From positions 1 to 23,568 of the IMG/VR virus record IMGVR_UViG_3300022916_000089: a stretch of DNA of 23,568 nucleotides; one strand, 5' to 3'. A model generated the notes under the pieces. That model ran no database searches. It was not told the origin of the DNA and saw nothing but the letters and a program-made list of their open reading frames with translations. Below, in pieces: positions 15,421 to 20,140 of the stretch. Source of the DNA: a virus. A program made the translations under genes and the position numbers. Position 1 is the stretch's first letter, and the number at the start of each line of letters is the position of its first letter.

Positions 15421-15873
15421 TTAGACCATGACCATGCAGCCGCTCACTTTGCAAGTGAAAGACGTTTGCATCAGGCCAGACTTGTCCGCTGAAATGTCGT
15501 AGCTGGTTACATTGACATGAGACGGGAAAGTCTCATTGTTGGTGGAATCTGAAGCAGTCCACCAGGATGTGGTCTGGCAGGGCTCGTAATAGGACGTGTT
15601 GTCTATATACAAGCGCAGGGTTGTAATGTTCGTGTTGTCGAGGTTCGCGGATTTCAGTACATCCTGACCTGTGGTATCGGCGGGGTCGAACAGACCTGAA
15701 AAAGTTATCTGCCCACCGTCCTTGATACCGAACTTGAATGTCTTCCATTGATCGCCGAACTCGGTGTCTTCAAGCGAATCTGAGGTAATTCCGCTGAGGC
15801 TCCAGGTTCCCATGCCTACTACTGAGTTCGCGCCTATAGCGACTTTACAATCTTTACCTATTTTTGTTGCCAT
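15421..15873 (-). CDS. Major tail (tail tube) protein
   Basis: This 150-residue protein is the likely tail tube subunit. It has the typical small all-beta layout: opening KIGKDCKVAIGANSVVGMGTW, then LEDTEFGDQWKTFKFGIKDGG, then ITFSGLFDPADTTGQDVLKSA. The later strands include LRLYIDNTSYYEP and the closing SGLMQTSFTCKVSG. The D-G-G-x-I-T-F-x-G-x-F-D-P-A-D-T/x-Q pattern is common in siphovirus tail tube proteins. The strongest ribosome site in the window (AAAGGAGGG, 5 bases before ATG) fits a protein made in many copies. It is followed by the tail assembly chaperone genes, the expected order. Three cysteines are present, two near the C-terminus, which is unusual for a tube protein but not impossible. 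Confidence 0.87.
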   Translation of the reverse strand: MATKIGKDCKVAIGANSVVGMGTWSLSGITSDSLEDTEFGDQWKTFKFGIKDGGQITFSGLFDPADTTGQDVLKSANLDNTNITTLRLYIDNTSYYEPCQTTSWWTASDSTNNETFPSHVNVTSYDISADKSGLMQTSFTCKVSGCMVMV

Positions 15874-15892
15874 TTTGCCCTCCTTTGGACAT

Positions 15893-15924
15893 AAAAAAAC
15901 CCAAGTCCTTATAGACTCAGGCTT
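15893..15924 (-). terminator. Intrinsic (rho-independent) terminator after the glycosyltransferase cassette
   Basis: On the minus strand, CCTGAGTC (15921-15914), a six-base loop (15913-15908) and GACTTGGG (15907-15900) form an 8-bp stem including two G-U pairs. Extra A-U and G-U pairs at the base are possible. It is followed at once by seven T residues (15899-15893). The orientation fits only minus-strand transcription. It sits between the 52-residue gene and the tail tube gene, within the late operon. Confidence 0.8.
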
Positions 15925-15959
15925 AAAGAGGGCTTCCGATTCAGGAGTATCCCAGTTGT

Positions 15960-16118
15960 TTATTTTTTCTTAATTTTGTCCCACTTTATGGTCTCATTCA
16001 CATTGACTGTGGAGATGCCACCTTTAAAGCAGTTTACAACTATATTGCCGACCTTGCCAGTCACCAGAAACTCCTTAATGACCTTCATGGTTTCCATAAA
16101 CGGCGTGTCGTTTTTCAT
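15960..16118 (-). CDS. 52-residue protein, possibly DUF2292/YezD-like
   Basis: This small gene codes for 52 residues and begins inside the stop of the preceding glycosyltransferase gene (TAATG), with GGGGAG upstream. The protein has a helical start (ETMKVIKEFLVTG), then a predicted beta hairpin, KVGNIVVNCFKGGISTVNVN, and ends ETIKWDKIKKK. The layout of a short helix, G-x-I/V-x-V strand, G-G turn, I-x-x-V-x-V-x-E-x-I strand resembles small DUF2292/YezD-type proteins, whose function is unknown to me. That family link is by pattern only and is weak. It is the last gene before the intrinsic terminator, so it closes the glycosyltransferase cassette. Confidence 0.65.
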   Translation of the reverse strand: MKNDTPFMETMKVIKEFLVTGKVGNIVVNCFKGGISTVNVNETIKWDKIKKK

Positions 16119-17440
16119 TAGTGTTCACTCCCCGGTAGAAACAACGAATCTTGATCCTGTTCATCATAATCCGTGTAACACTCAGTAGCCTCATGATATC
16201 CCATGCGGTTTAGCTTCTTGTATAGCTCATACGTTTCGCGCTTCACCTCGTATGTGACCAGATGGCCGATCTCCATGGACGTATCAACATATATTTGATA
16301 CCCGGCATTGCGGACCTTCCAACAAAGACCGATGTCTTCTCCGACCGTCTTGCCATCAATGCCTTTGCGGATCTCGTACCACGGAGTCGGGATGTCGAGG
16401 AAGATATCAGTCGAATACATGACTGCCCCGCAGCCTGTCGCATCCACTTCTATCATGTCACCGGAATAACATTCCTTATCCGGGACGTGCTGATACTTGC
16501 CCAGCTTGCCGCGATAAAGCAGAGGATCGAAGGGTGGCCAACTCCTATGAACCGGAGTACCCACCATCTTATATCCGTCCACCGCATGTTGCAGCATCTT
16601 CGTGACAGTATCCGGTGGGTATAGCTGATCCGTGTCCAGCATCAATACATGGGAATATGACCCGTACATACCCATCGACTGGCTGATAAGATCGTTCCGA
16701 ATTCCGGCAATGTTGGTCGCCATGCGTCCGACTGAGAAACGCGGCATAAGCAGGGTAAAATCCGGCTTTTCCATTGCCAGAAAGCTGACCATAAACTGAA
16801 CACTGACATTATCGTTAATCAAGGGGAACGCGATGGCCAGGGTCGGCCCTACCCGGTCAAGTTTCCTTTGCCGGTAGAGCCGCTGATCCGGCACCACCAT
16901 TTCCCGATCATACACCCGCGTGTAGTCCTTATCCATCAGCGCCCTGTCCGTGTGTGGGTGGTGGTGGGTAATCGTTGCGATGGGACAGTGGATATACCGG
17001 CCAAGTTCGATACATCGTTCTGTGAGTTCCACATCGCAACGGGTGTGCTTATAACCTGTGTGGAAAAAAGTCCCGTCCAGAAACGGCAGGAGCTTTTTGT
17101 GCACCATCCAATGGGTGGCCACATCAGTTCCGTCGTGGTGCTGATCGTTTAACCCAATCATTCCCCAGTTATCCGGGAAGGTCTGCATGGCATCGAGTGC
17201 GTTCTTCAGACAGTCCGGTTCAACTGTGGTATCATCACCAAGAAACACCACGATTTCATGTTTCGCTTTGGCCACCAATTTTTGGATCATCTTGGGTGCG
17301 CCGATCCGTTCGTGGTCCTCTTCAGTTACAATCTCAAACTGACTATCCGGCAACCCCCCATTTTTGTAAATTGATGCGATGCACCGCTTCGCTTTCTCCG
17401 GTCTGATCACCGGAATGGTGATACTGATTTTCTCTCCCAT
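16118..17440 (-). CDS. Glycosyltransferase with two tandem GT-A domains
   Basis: This 440-residue protein contains two glycosyltransferase-like halves. Residues 1 to about 195 open with ISITIPVIRPEKAKRCIASI and carry EIVVFLGDDTTVEPDCL (D69/D70). Residues about 200-440 open with LAIAFPLINDNVSVQFMVSF and carry YSHVLMLDTDQLYPPDTV (D269-T-D271). The second half also has VGEDIGLCWKVRNAGYQIYVD (366-386), the ED plus H pattern (H393) typical of GT2 catalytic acceptor sites. I prefer the ATG at 17440, preceded by GGGAG, over the GTG at 17464, which overlaps the previous stop by four bases. There are no membrane segments. The two halves may act in sequence on one glycan. The stop overlaps the next start as TAATG. 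Confidence 0.85.
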   Translation of the reverse strand: MGEKISITIPVIRPEKAKRCIASIYKNGGLPDSQFEIVTEEDHERIGAPKMIQKLVAKAKHEIVVFLGDDTTVEPDCLKNALDAMQTFPDNWGMIGLNDQHHDGTDVATHWMVHKKLLPFLDGTFFHTGYKHTRCDVELTERCIELGRYIHCPIATITHHHPHTDRALMDKDYTRVYDREMVVPDQRLYRQRKLDRVGPTLAIAFPLINDNVSVQFMVSFLAMEKPDFTLLMPRFSVGRMATNIAGIRNDLISQSMGMYGSYSHVLMLDTDQLYPPDTVTKMLQHAVDGYKMVGTPVHRSWPPFDPLLYRGKLGKYQHVPDKECYSGDMIEVDATGCGAVMYSTDIFLDIPTPWYEIRKGIDGKTVGEDIGLCWKVRNAGYQIYVDTSMEIGHLVTYEVKRETYELYKKLNRMGYHEATECYTDYDEQDQDSLFLPGSEH

Positions 17441-17452
17441 TTTATTCTCCCG
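17434..17452 (-). repeat. Duplicated 19-base translation-initiation leader, copy 2
   Basis: This is the exact second copy of the 19-base leader at 17763-17781. It contains the ribosome site and ATG (17440) of the two-domain glycosyltransferase. Its presence is the main reason for choosing 17440 as the start instead of the GTG eight codons earlier. Confidence 0.8.
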
Positions 17453-17460
17453 AATAAATG

Positions 17461-17769
17461 TCACTTTAGCTTTTCGGCTATAAACGCAAGAACCTGACTT
17501 TCACATTCATGCGGTTCACAGTCAGAAACCATGTCGAGTTCTAAACACATAGTCTCAAAATCTGCATGAGATATACTGATCGACTTAATGAATCCCTCTA
17601 TTTTCGGGGATGCTGTTTTGAGTGGGTCAAGAAACACCTTATCCAATTCATCACGCACAACCCCAACACCACTATCATATAATTTTTCCAACCTCGCAAC
17701 ATGCACGGTCCGCGAGCCAACATCAACAAATTCATTTTCAACATACAACTTTAAAGTAAAAGCTCCCAT
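17461..17769 (-). CDS. Hypothetical protein of the glycosyltransferase cassette
   Basis: This is a 102-residue protein I do not recognise. It opens with a beta strand (FTLKLYVENEFVDVGSRTVHV). An acidic, mostly helical part follows, and the end contains MVSDCEPHECESQVLAFIAEKL with two cysteines and a histidine. No membrane or signal segment is visible. The ribosome site and start (a 19-base stretch at 17763-17781) are identical to those of the following glycosyltransferase gene. It lies one base after the GT2 stop and ends in contact with the next gene, so it is surely co-translated with the two glycosyltransferases. A role as an accessory or acceptor protein for them is only a guess from position. 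Confidence 0.65.
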   Translation of the reverse strand: MGAFTLKLYVENEFVDVGSRTVHVARLEKLYDSGVGVVRDELDKVFLDPLKTASPKIEGFIKSISISHADFETMCLELDMVSDCEPHECESQVLAFIAEKLK

Positions 17770-17781
17770 TTTATTCTCCCG
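17763..17781 (-). repeat. Duplicated 19-base translation-initiation leader, copy 1
   Basis: Read on the minus strand, the sequence CGGGAGAATAAAATGGGAG surrounds the start codon of the 102-residue gene. An exact second copy lies at 17434-17452 around the start of the two-domain glycosyltransferase. The stretch contains the Shine-Dalgarno GGGAG, an AT-rich spacer and the first codons. The fusion glycosyltransferase at 19730 and the zinc-ribbon gene at 18597 also use CGGGAG ribosome sites. Confidence 0.8.
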
Positions 17782-18433
17782 TAATATCTGGCTTCAAATA
17801 TTTCTCCTGTTGCAAGTATCTCTCTCCGTCCCACCCCTCAATCTGCTGGCAAACCATGCCATTGATCTTGATACACCGCTTCCCCACTGCGCCTGCAAAA
17901 AAATATCCCTTCGGCACCTTCTCCGCATATTCAAAGAAATCACTTGCACGGGTTACGAACATCCCCACGCTGACCGTAATATCGCCAATCTCGTGTTCCC
18001 CTGAAATCGTTGGGACGGTCTTTACGTTTATTGGTGTTAATACCTGCCGGACTCCCCCGCGCTTCAAGGACACAACCCCGACATTCTCTTCCCGTTCCAG
18101 CACCTCGATCATGGTTGACAACCAGAGGTGCGGCACCTCCATATCGTTATCAAGCTGGACGATGTAATCGGGATTATCGGCTATCTTCGCTCCGGCAATA
18201 ATACCACCCCACCCTCCGAGGTTCTCCGGTAAGTGCAACGGTTTGACTTTTGAGAAATAATCGCTCGATTTGGATGTGACCCAATCAAGCCATTCCTTAG
18301 TCCCATCAGTCGAATTGTTGTTGACTATGATATGTTCATATGGGAAATGCGTATTTTGCCGAACTGAATTTACACAACGAGTTAGGTATTCTAGTCGGTT
18401 GAATGCCGGAGTGATAATGGCGGTCCTTTTCAC
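17771..18433 (-). CDS. GT2 family glycosyltransferase
   Basis: This 220-residue protein consists of a single GT-A fold. The family signature is clear: TAIITPAFNRLEYLTRCVNSV at the N-terminus, YEHIIVNNNSTDGTKEWL (residues 32-49), LPENLGGWGGIIAGAKIA (68-85), then YIVQLDNDMEV with D95-N96-D97 as the DxD-type metal/nucleotide-sugar site. The later part (FFAGAVGKRCIKINGMVCQQIEG) probably forms the acceptor side. There are no membrane segments, so it is likely a soluble enzyme using an activated sugar donor. The start is GTG, which shares four bases with the stop of the zinc-ribbon gene. Donor and acceptor cannot be told from sequence. At 220 residues it is a minimal member of the family. Confidence 0.9.
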   Translation of the reverse strand: MKRTAIITPAFNRLEYLTRCVNSVRQNTHFPYEHIIVNNNSTDGTKEWLDWVTSKSSDYFSKVKPLHLPENLGGWGGIIAGAKIADNPDYIVQLDNDMEVPHLWLSTMIEVLEREENVGVVSLKRGGVRQVLTPINVKTVPTISGEHEIGDITVSVGMFVTRASDFFEYAEKVPKGYFFAGAVGKRCIKINGMVCQQIEGWDGERYLQQEKYLKPDITGE

Positions 18434-18597
18434 TTTTCATCCCCGGTATATTTTCCGCACATCGGACAATGGCACACGGCACACTCAATCAACACCTGAT
18501 CTGATTCCGTGTCTATCGCATTGAAAACAACAAACTGAGCACCGCAGTGTGGGCATGTGATGTCGTGCAGGTCATGTGTGATAGATAATTTTATCAT
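18430..18597 (-). CDS. 55-residue zinc-ribbon protein
   Basis: This is a short gene coding for 55 residues, overlapping the fusion enzyme upstream by one base (TGATG) and the GT2 gene downstream by four (GTGA). GGGAG sits 8 bases before the ATG. It has two cysteine clusters: CPHCG at residues 15-19, and CAVCHCPMCGK at 39-49, which holds C39, C42, C44 and C47. C15/C18 with C44/C47 or C39/C42 would make a four-ligand zinc ribbon. The middle part (AQFVVFNAIDTESDQVLIE) would be the connecting beta hairpin. Such mini zinc ribbons are common in phages and their roles are mostly unknown. The tight coupling on both sides argues that it is a real gene of the cassette. Confidence 0.75.
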   Translation of the reverse strand: MIKLSITHDLHDITCPHCGAQFVVFNAIDTESDQVLIECAVCHCPMCGKYTGDEK

Positions 18598-19730
18598 CAG
18601 ATAAACTCCCGAATGAATCTGAAATTTCCCTTCATGAATTTATACTCATCCCACTTCTCCACCAAGCCGTTACCGCACACATCACTTATGCGTCCGTGTA
18701 CTGATGAATTATCCAACAAATACATTTTCACACCCTTCTGGACTTTCCCTTTGCTACTGTGGTTTTCGGCAATCCAGTATCCCCGTTCCTTCAGTGCCTG
18801 GTATAGCCCCGGTGAGGTCTGCCATCCCGGTGATTTCCAACCATGTGTGAACCCCCAGGGTTCGATCTTGTCCAGGAACCTTAACCCATCATCCTTTGTC
18901 CATTCAGCGCACTCGAAGTTGTCCTCATGCCGCCAGCCATGAGGGATAATGTCCGCCCACTCAGCCAATCCCTTCAAATGCTCTAACCAATCCCGCGAAC
19001 AGCGGCCCAAGATCGTGAAGAGATTAACCTTGAAGCCTGGGATTGTCTCATATAGTTCACGCAAAAGCGGCAGGTGGTGATTGGTTTCGTGAAAGTCGTC
19101 CAGGTCAAAAATGATGTGATCTTGCCCCCATATCCGATCTTTTTCCGGTATGTTAAACGCATCAAGTATCCCCGCTATGTCCGCTGTCTTTGCCCTCTGC
19201 CCCCTTGCATGGGTCGATGAGTTCACCACCTGGTCCCACCAGTACGTCGGGTATTTCATAGGCCACACATCAGAAAGGAAGTGGTAATCCCCGCACTTCT
19301 GAACATCCTCCGCATGGACGTGCTGCTGGTAGACCTCATTCGAAACAACAAAACAGGGTGTCCCGATTTGGCTTATGATCGGCTTGTTCTGCCATACTAA
19401 AGGGGTGGGGTATAGCTTGCCCTCAATCAACGCTCTGCACATAATGACTTCAGGAGCATGATCGCTGACGATCTTCTTCAGATCCTTAATGAAATCATCA
19501 TGCAGAAAATCGTCGTCATCTTCCAACATGTAAACGAACTTCCCCCTGACATGCTGTTTTGTGTGCTTCAGATTCTTATTCGCCCACGGTATCCCCCTCC
19601 CTACATCGTCAATTAAACAAAGGGTCTGGAAATCCTGGTCGGTTTGTTTTTTCAAAGAACTGAGCGCTTTGTGAATTCCGGCAGGCCGTGTGGTACACCG
19701 GAACACGAACGTCAAAAAAGGCTCTCCCAT
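18597..19730 (-). CDS. Bifunctional protein: GT2-like glycosyltransferase fused to a polysaccharide deacetylase-like domain
   Basis: This is a 377-residue predicted cytoplasmic protein. Residues 1 to about 195 look like a GT-A glycosyltransferase. They contain an opening strand FLTFVFRCTTRPAGIHKALSS, then QDFQTLCLIDD and the acidic FVYMLEDDDDFLHDDF segment (residues 66-80, D71-D74), the usual nucleotide-sugar/metal site. Residues about 204-377 resemble a NodB-type polysaccharide deacetylase: an IIFDLDDFHE strand (D211/D212), HGWRH (H264 and H268, fitting an HxxxH metal pair), and KSPGWQTSPGLYQALKERGY (299-318, like the R-x-P-x-W/G motif). A strong GGAGGGGG ribosome site precedes the ATG. The stop overlaps the following small gene as TGATG. 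Activity and substrate are unknown. Catalytic competence of the deacetylase half is less certain than its fold. Confidence 0.82.
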   Translation of the reverse strand: MGEPFLTFVFRCTTRPAGIHKALSSLKKQTDQDFQTLCLIDDVGRGIPWANKNLKHTKQHVRGKFVYMLEDDDDFLHDDFIKDLKKIVSDHAPEVIMCRALIEGKLYPTPLVWQNKPIISQIGTPCFVVSNEVYQQHVHAEDVQKCGDYHFLSDVWPMKYPTYWWDQVVNSSTHARGQRAKTADIAGILDAFNIPEKDRIWGQDHIIFDLDDFHETNHHLPLLRELYETIPGFKVNLFTILGRCSRDWLEHLKGLAEWADIIPHGWRHEDNFECAEWTKDDGLRFLDKIEPWGFTHGWKSPGWQTSPGLYQALKERGYWIAENHSSKGKVQKGVKMYLLDNSSVHGRISDVCGNGLVEKWDEYKFMKGNFRFIREFI

Positions 19731-19744
19731 AGCCCCCTCCCGTT

Positions 19745-20140
19745 TTATGATTGTAATAGAATATTGTATTGGACGGTATATTGTCGGATATTTTCGTCCG
19801 GGTTAGACAATGACCAGTATTGACTGTATTGCATGAAAAGGTGTGTGTATCCGGCAACTGTCAAAGCCGCATCGTCATAAAGTGCTCTGAGATACGTTAA
19901 GAGATTGCCTATTTCGGTTTCAGATGTGCTTTGAGAGTAGATGTTAAACTGAATATCAACGTCATCAAACTCCTGTGTGAAATTCCAATCCCCAATTCCG
20001 GTTACAATATCCAATACGGCATACGGGAAAGGCGTATTTTGAGGAGCAAATCTCGTGTAAAGGCGTGATCCGATGGCTGTCTTGAAATCATTTGCCACGT
20101 TGAATTTCGTGAATATGCCTGTAAGTAATGGATTGCTCAT
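19745..20140 (-). CDS. Tail terminator / tail completion protein (DUF3168-like)
   Basis: This 131-residue protein resembles the DUF3168 / SPP1 gp17-like tail terminator family, which caps the tail tube and joins it to the head. Typical parts are the opening PLLTGIFTKFN, GSRLYTRFAPQNTPFPYAVLDIV, a strand with FDDVDIQFNIYSQSTSETEIGNLLTYLRALYDD, and a closing strand with IRQYTVQYNILLQ. Length is normal for the family. The start overlaps the preceding stop as ATGA. In most siphophages the next gene is the tail tube protein. Here the next tail gene does not begin until 15873, because a glycosyltransferase cassette of about 3.8 kb lies between. Confidence 0.85.
   Translation of the reverse strand: MSNPLLTGIFTKFNVANDFKTAIGSRLYTRFAPQNTPFPYAVLDIVTGIGDWNFTQEFDDVDIQFNIYSQSTSETEIGNLLTYLRALYDDAALTVAGYTHLFMQYSQYWSLSNPDENIRQYTVQYNILLQS

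Follow-up and report, generated by a model that had tools for sequence, protein, structure and literature searches.

Gene Content of the Window

The window, which is the whole 23,568-base viral contig of IMG/VR record IMGVR_UViG_3300022916_000089, carries on its minus strand a late structural module. Within this module, a six-gene block at 15960–19730 lies between the tail terminator and tail tube genes and encodes four GT-A glycosyltransferase (GT) domains together with a deacetylase-like domain. Its tandem GT-A protein, P0005, is referred to as the anchor, and the genes between the tail terminator gene and the anchor occupy what we call the variable slot. Since the relatives of this phage hold a GT fixed before the tail tube gene and a fast-changing set of sugar genes beside it, the members of this large group of uncultured tailed phages probably decorate their own tails with sugars that vary. 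The features are listed below.

19745..20140 (−), tail terminator gene, bounding the slot on its upstream side (PF11367, Tail_completion_gp17, E 1.8e-7; phrog_176, E 1.1e-7)
18597..19730 (−), P0001, N-terminal GT-A-like part (approximately residues 1–199) and NodB-like deacetylase domain (approximately residues 200–377), variable slot
18430..18597 (−), P0002, 55-residue zinc-ribbon-like protein (PF14255, E 1.5e-4, below the cut-off)
17771..18433 (−), P0003, GT2 glycosyltransferase, variable slot (PF00535, 3e-24; no membrane segment by hydropathy)
17461..17769 (−), P0004, 102-residue protein with no family match in profile searches
16118..17440 (−), P0005, tandem GT-A protein, conserved anchor (AlphaFold2 model and invariant motif acids; alternative GTG start at 17464)
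15960..16118 (−), P0006, 52-residue protein kept in nearer relatives only, from the comparison of relatives
15897..15924 (−), terminator-like hairpin in the gap between block and tail tube gene (12-pair stem and T run)
15421..15873 (−), tail tube gene (P0007), the proposed acceptor, with a candidate acceptor segment at approximately residues 93–117 (phrog_1407, E 8e-8)

The tail tube gene also matched a Pfam tail tube/major tail protein family at E 3e-5, below the Pfam cut-off. An earlier note on this DNA had described six genes at this place, closed by an intrinsic terminator; all six open reading frames (ORFs) were found there on the expected strand, and the hairpin has the stem and T run of such a terminator. 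The GT2 and double GT-A proteins that it named were likewise recovered; in P0005, two regions are matched by PF13641 and likewise two by PF00535. Its "six overlapping genes" are indeed tightly packed, but only some junctions are overlaps (1–4 nt) and others are gaps of 1–20 nt. It had further counted three GT-A domains and a deacetylase; the GT-A domains number four, and the deacetylase stands as a deacetylase-like domain. Its zinc ribbon stands as a CPxC-type spacing in P0002, though the Pfam match is the sub-threshold one listed above.

A GT-A Gene at the Tail Tube Junction of All Relatives

P0005 alone retrieved nothing in a search for close relatives, and alignment-based searches were therefore used. 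To gather relatives without regard to GTs, the tail tube and tail-tube alignments were used as queries against viral contigs; the profile census registered a GT-A domain within 2.6 kb 5′ of the tail tube in contigs with at least 650 nt upstream. Among the relatives found by the tail tube alone, the tail tube gene was directly preceded by a GT-A gene in 124 of 124. When contigs from all routes were pooled, including those from GT queries and metagenome-assembled genomes (MAGs), the count was 172 of 172, which at 90% identity comprise 122 distinct tail tubes. The gap from the GT-A gene to the tail tube was 64 nt in the median and at most 250 nt in 149 contigs. The four MAG contigs were binned as Methanoperedens, Pacearchaeota, Lutibacter and Pseudomonadota, a binning that gives weak evidence for the host.

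The anchor occurs in three forms. Eighty-nine contigs have the form of the window, in which an N-terminal domain (GTN) and a C-terminal domain (GTC) are present as one protein or two adjacent ones, and 39 have GTC alone. A different GT-A domain, named K, is found in 42, for example in L076–L083, where it occupies the GT position; two further contigs hold K next to GTC. K exhibited weak Pfam matches only (PF00535, best 9e-5), is weakly similar to GTN, and matched structures 2qgi/2nxv at 4e-8, which are catalogued as an ATP synthase region ORF and which we take to be GT-A enzymes. Because the anchor takes three forms, one of them this different domain, the presence of a GT is maintained even though the gene that supplies it differs.

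These data do not agree with the moron-like cassette that the earlier note proposed. A GT-A gene occupies the place in every relative of sufficient length, which means that the double GT is no optional insert; none of the 172 contigs is free of GT at this junction, and only slot genes are optional. Promoter-like sites in the region were at chance level (11 found versus 7.6 ± 2.6 in shuffles, for a scan of the sigma-70 type only), and the terminator-like hairpin is present. Nor do the six genes travel together among the relatives searched: P0002 and P0004 were not found in the fetched relatives, P0006 is restricted to the nearer ones, and P0003-type GT2 genes are variably present or absent.

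Some contigs deviate locally. A tandem pair of tail tube genes follows the GT in L058, L069, L191, L198 and L205. A connector-like gene follows it on the opposite strand in L110 (3059–3982), reflecting either a rearrangement or an assembly error.

Fold and Motifs of the Tandem GT-A Protein

Residues of P0005 are numbered from the GTG start (448 residues), giving GTN at approximately residues 10–203 and GTC at approximately residues 209–420. The ATG at 17440, which has the Shine–Dalgarno sequence CGGGAG, is the more likely start than the GTG at 17464, judging from the sequence; with this start, P0005 would not overlap P0004. The leaders of P0004 (17754–17775) and P0005 (17425–17445) are near-identical (CGGGAGAATAAAATGGGAG), as if the start region had been copied.

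An AlphaFold2 model based on 58 aligned sequences (mean predicted local distance difference test, pLDDT, 91.8) consists of two GT-A domains. The motif acids D77-D78 of GTN, and D277-T-D279 and G375-E-D377 of GTC, are invariant in the 58 sequences, and both domains are thus probably enzymatically active. The best structural match of GTC was STIV A197 (PDB 2c0n; Z 18.1, root-mean-square deviation (rmsd) 2.7 over 176 of 191 residues, 15% identity), and GTN matched a Leptospira GT (6p61, Z 16.7) and polypeptide GalNAc transferases (Z 16–17). No match was obtained with the double-GT profile against the sequences of solved structures; structure comparison alone gave matches. The top two-domain matches by Foldseek were K4 chondroitin polymerase (K4CP) and heparosan synthase 2 (PmHS2) (E 7e-11 to 1e-9), on which the two domains of P0005 could not be superposed together (rmsd 18–21).

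GTC also matches PHROG 1574 (6e-9), a family annotated as "unknown function" in PHROGs. The fold match to STIV A197 and the DTD and GED motifs indicate that GTC of the PHROG 1574 type is a GT-A domain, which suggests a function for this family.

Turnover of the Variable Slot

Slot content was compared in 95 contigs containing both borders, counting genes of at least 120 residues beyond the anchor; 25 of them have no such gene. On a 95-tip tree built from GTC and the tail tube, the slot content (17 states) must have changed at least 37 times; scored separately, methyltransferase presence calls for at least 21 changes and GT presence for at least 14. The split between GTN plus GTC and GTC alone needs one change on the same tree. 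L084, the nearest tree neighbour of the window in a supported grouping, has a different slot composed of a hexapeptide transferase, a GT and two methyltransferases.

Pfam families in the slots comprise GT2, GT17, GT29 and, weakly, GT4, GT-D and sulfotransferase; GDP-mannose 4,6-dehydratase and hexapeptide transferase; Methyltransf_11/23/24, rhamnosyl O-methyltransferase/CmcI, and Radical_SAM with SPASM. Deacetylases are also present. The frequency of methyltransferases would fit GTs that modify the phage DNA, and DNA-hypermodifying viral GTs are known (Pyle et al. 2024, as cited in PMC12619734). Such a role is nevertheless very improbable here, as the slot methyltransferases match the Methyltransf_11/23/24 and rhamnosyl O-methyltransferase models, and neither PF00303 (thymidylate synthase/hydroxymethylase) nor PF00145 (C5 DNA methylase) was found in 18 longer relatives, whose contigs are possibly incomplete. 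The control of a TET/JBP test was silent, so its result carries no weight.

In the window itself, the N-terminus of P0001 gave weak GT matches (PF11316, E 7e-4, below the cut-off; phrog_14775, E 1.5e-3). Its C-terminal part had no Pfam match above the cut-off and reached E 0.08 to a peptidoglycan deacetylase in a PDB profile search; the NodB-type motifs DD, HGWxH and KxPG are invariant in four sequences, namely P0001 and three other loci. These loci are L015, where the deacetylase is a separate gene at the same terminator/tail tube junction, and L002 and L003, where it lies within GT clusters beside the capsid gene. P0004 and P0006 matched no family in Pfam or PHROG, and searches of phage isolates with P0001, P0007 and P0008 returned no match. 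P0006 appears in a doubled, 105-residue form in L015 (6288–6605), and resembles small YezD/DUF2292 proteins by eye only, having no Pfam match.

The catalytic part of P0003 matches the PHROG family "GtrB-like O-antigen conversion" (6e-11), and many phages carry surface-modifying GTs. Both points would suit genes that alter the host surface during infection, either blocking superinfection, the alternative raised in the earlier note, or helping progeny to be released from debris. Superinfection exclusion becomes less likely because none of the six block proteins is predicted to contain a membrane segment (highest 19-residue hydropathy, 1.27). Such segments are few in slot proteins of relatives as well: 18 of 307 ORFs pass the hydropathy cut-off, and many of the 18 are structural genes or others outside the slot. 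The six-gene block also has no flippase-like gene, belongs to a late structural operon, and has its GT kept beside one virion gene in all relatives. We hence judge a host-surface role distinctly unlikely.

Genes resembling HNH, NUMOD3 or LAGLIDADG endonucleases recur in or beside the slot, and are possible means of gene exchange, as judged from sequence. They are located as follows.

L007 7029–7907, L015 6906–7877 and L016 1211–2182, endonuclease-like genes in or beside the slot
L074 6116–7045, L130 5338–6222 and L032 4232–5740, endonuclease-like genes in or beside the slot

The Tail Tube as Candidate Acceptor

Distant homologues of the tail tube are present in six isolated phages: Roseobacter CRP-811 and CRP-406, Pelagibacter HTVC026P and HTVC202P, Rhodobacter RcCronus, and Synechococcus S-H1. 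None of the six has a GT-sized gene directly 5′ of the tail tube. CRP-811 and CRP-406 directly exhibit the terminator-to-tail-tube order that the earlier note had called usual for siphoviruses. The six GT-less tail tubes lack the segment corresponding to approximately residues 95–110 of P0007, within 93–117. Across 131 GT-linked tail tubes, residues 95 and 96 are aromatic in at least 95%, and residue 93 is Ser or Thr in 92%. Because GT-linked tail tubes have this segment and the GT-less ones do not, approximately residues 93–117 are a candidate acceptor or docking site, a correlation drawn from one distant comparison group. A possible N-glycosylation sequon, the motif YxDNTSYY of the tail tube, was rejected, since its N is kept in only 39% of the 131 sequences. 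The tail tube model was moderate (pLDDT 71) and was excluded from the arguments.

Hairpins like that of the window recur 5′ of the tail tube in relatives. In the window (15874–15960, minus strand), L007 (7905–8000) and L008 (4284–4366), the hairpin stands directly 5′ of the tail tube Shine–Dalgarno sequence, and an upstream GCCC(U/A)C can pair with the Shine–Dalgarno GGAGGGC, closing a stem around the hairpin; other relatives have similar leader hairpins without the outer stem. Fold z-scores of the leader were −1.3, −3.6 and −2.9 for the window, L007 and L008, respectively. The hairpin may control expression of the tail tube.

Sugar-Related Genes on the Capsid Side and the Choice of Acceptor

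In phages of other types, GTC homologues occur directly 3′ of the major capsid gene, namely in MW202711, MW202496, MW202462 and Microcystis phage Mel-JY34, and PHROG 1574 matches the post-capsid genes of MW202711 (4e-24) and Mel-JY34 (5e-15). In L002 (1111–6404), GT4, GT2, methyltransferase-like and deacetylase genes and further GTs are placed between capsid-like and connector-like genes, and L003 (6071–9106) has a similar gene run. By their gene content, these runs look like the capsid-side counterpart of the tail-side slot.

The homologues following the capsid gene raise the option that the enzymes glycosylate another structural protein, such as the capsid, neck or tail fibre, and that the position beside the tail tube is inherited gene order. 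Second GTC-like copies elsewhere in L056, L154 and L205 point the same way, as does the capsid modification that accompanies that of the tail tube in known mycobacteriophage systems (PMC12363180 and PMC12619734). The anchor, however, adjoins the tail tube in nearly all contigs and in all three forms, and is not beside the capsid gene in phages of this clade. We thus consider another acceptor rather unlikely.

The reading that we moderately favour is that the anchor glycosylates the phage's own virion, with the tail tube as the most likely acceptor, and that the slot genes tailor the glycan. It draws support from the constant adjacency of GT and tail tube, from the sugar-tailoring character and turnover of the slot genes, and from the tail tube segment lacking in GT-less phages; the GTC homologues beyond the capsid gene and the mycobacteriophage precedent likewise favour virion glycosylation. 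Several observations count against it, including the double GT of L112, which lies between connector and head closure genes and also speaks for another acceptor. The predicted GT-A fold gives no pointer to the acceptor, and conserved gene order of a structural operon could by itself explain part of the linkage. Adjacency to the target gene is not required, because the GT genes of mycobacteriophage Che8 (gp108–110) sit together at 56–59 kb of 59.5 kb, at the right end and away from the tail genes. GTN resembles Che8 gp110 weakly (22.9 bits, with E 1e-8 among 3 sequences; hhalign E 0.007, probability 6%). A blastp search with Che8 gp110 reached the relatives at 3e-4.

Proposed Mechanism and Implications

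In the glycosylation of the tail tube favoured above, P0005 would be a cytosolic tandem GT, produced alongside the late structural proteins, and would add sugar to the tail tube protein before or during tail assembly. One domain would probably place the first sugar and the other extend it. The slot genes would then extend or trim the glycan, using the GT-A/deacetylase protein, GT2 and small proteins in the window, and methyltransferases, radical SAM proteins, a GDP-mannose dehydratase-like protein and other GTs in relatives. As the slot genes are often swapped, the tails of related phages would differ in decoration. Directly observed are the genes present, their linkage, GT-A motifs that are intact in the two domains, and slot turnover; virion glycosylation, its acceptor, the sugar, the order of steps and a benefit in shielding, stability or adsorption are our inference. 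Of what the earlier note anticipated, sugar modification and a link to a virion protein gene find support, with the acceptor standing as a proposal. A further, tentative idea, which we hold to be possible but doubtful, is that an obligate GT–tail tube pair and the swap site form a dedicated device that diversifies tail glycans between lineages of a widespread clade of uncultured siphoviruses, in which the tail tube provides its own acceptor segment (approximately residues 93–117).

Phage-encoded virion glycosylation as such is already known, from experiments on a few mycobacteriophages (PMC12363180 and PMC12619734). A GT fixed beside the tail tube, with three anchor forms and a fast-changing slot, had no earlier description in the open-licence literature searched. 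If the reading is true, self-glycosylation would be an integral feature of the tail module in a broad clade of uncultured phages, offering a testable acceptor and a natural library of tailoring enzymes. A GT directly 5′ of the tail tube or 3′ of the capsid gene would then be a genomic marker for glycosylated virions elsewhere, and tail glycans would matter for virion stability, adsorption and recognition of the phage by other organisms.

Comparison with Known Systems

STIV A197 resembles GTC in its GT-A fold, and differs as a single-domain protein of an archaeal virus with 15% identity. K4CP from E. coli and PmHS2 from P. multocida have two GT-A domains per chain, as does P0005, a likeness that implies no polymerase function. 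Gtr serotype conversion employs a membrane-bound GT and a flippase, and the window block has neither. Flagellin glycosylation islands place the gene of a major filament subunit beside strain-variable GT, methyltransferase and sugar-nucleotide genes; their logic is similar to that proposed for the tail tube and slot, although they serve bacterial flagella and no homology is claimed.

The closest parallel is found in mycobacteriophages, whose own GTs glycosylate the capsid and the tail tube (Freeman et al. 2023, as cited in PMC12363180 and PMC12619734), the systems meant being Che8 gp110, Corndog gp38 and Myrna. They share with the system proposed for the window the use of phage-encoded GTs on abundant virion proteins, and the C-terminal part of Che8 gp108 looks methyltransferase-like by eye. 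Unlike in Che8, the GT is fixed here directly 5′ of the tail tube across the clade and is accompanied by a variable tailoring slot.

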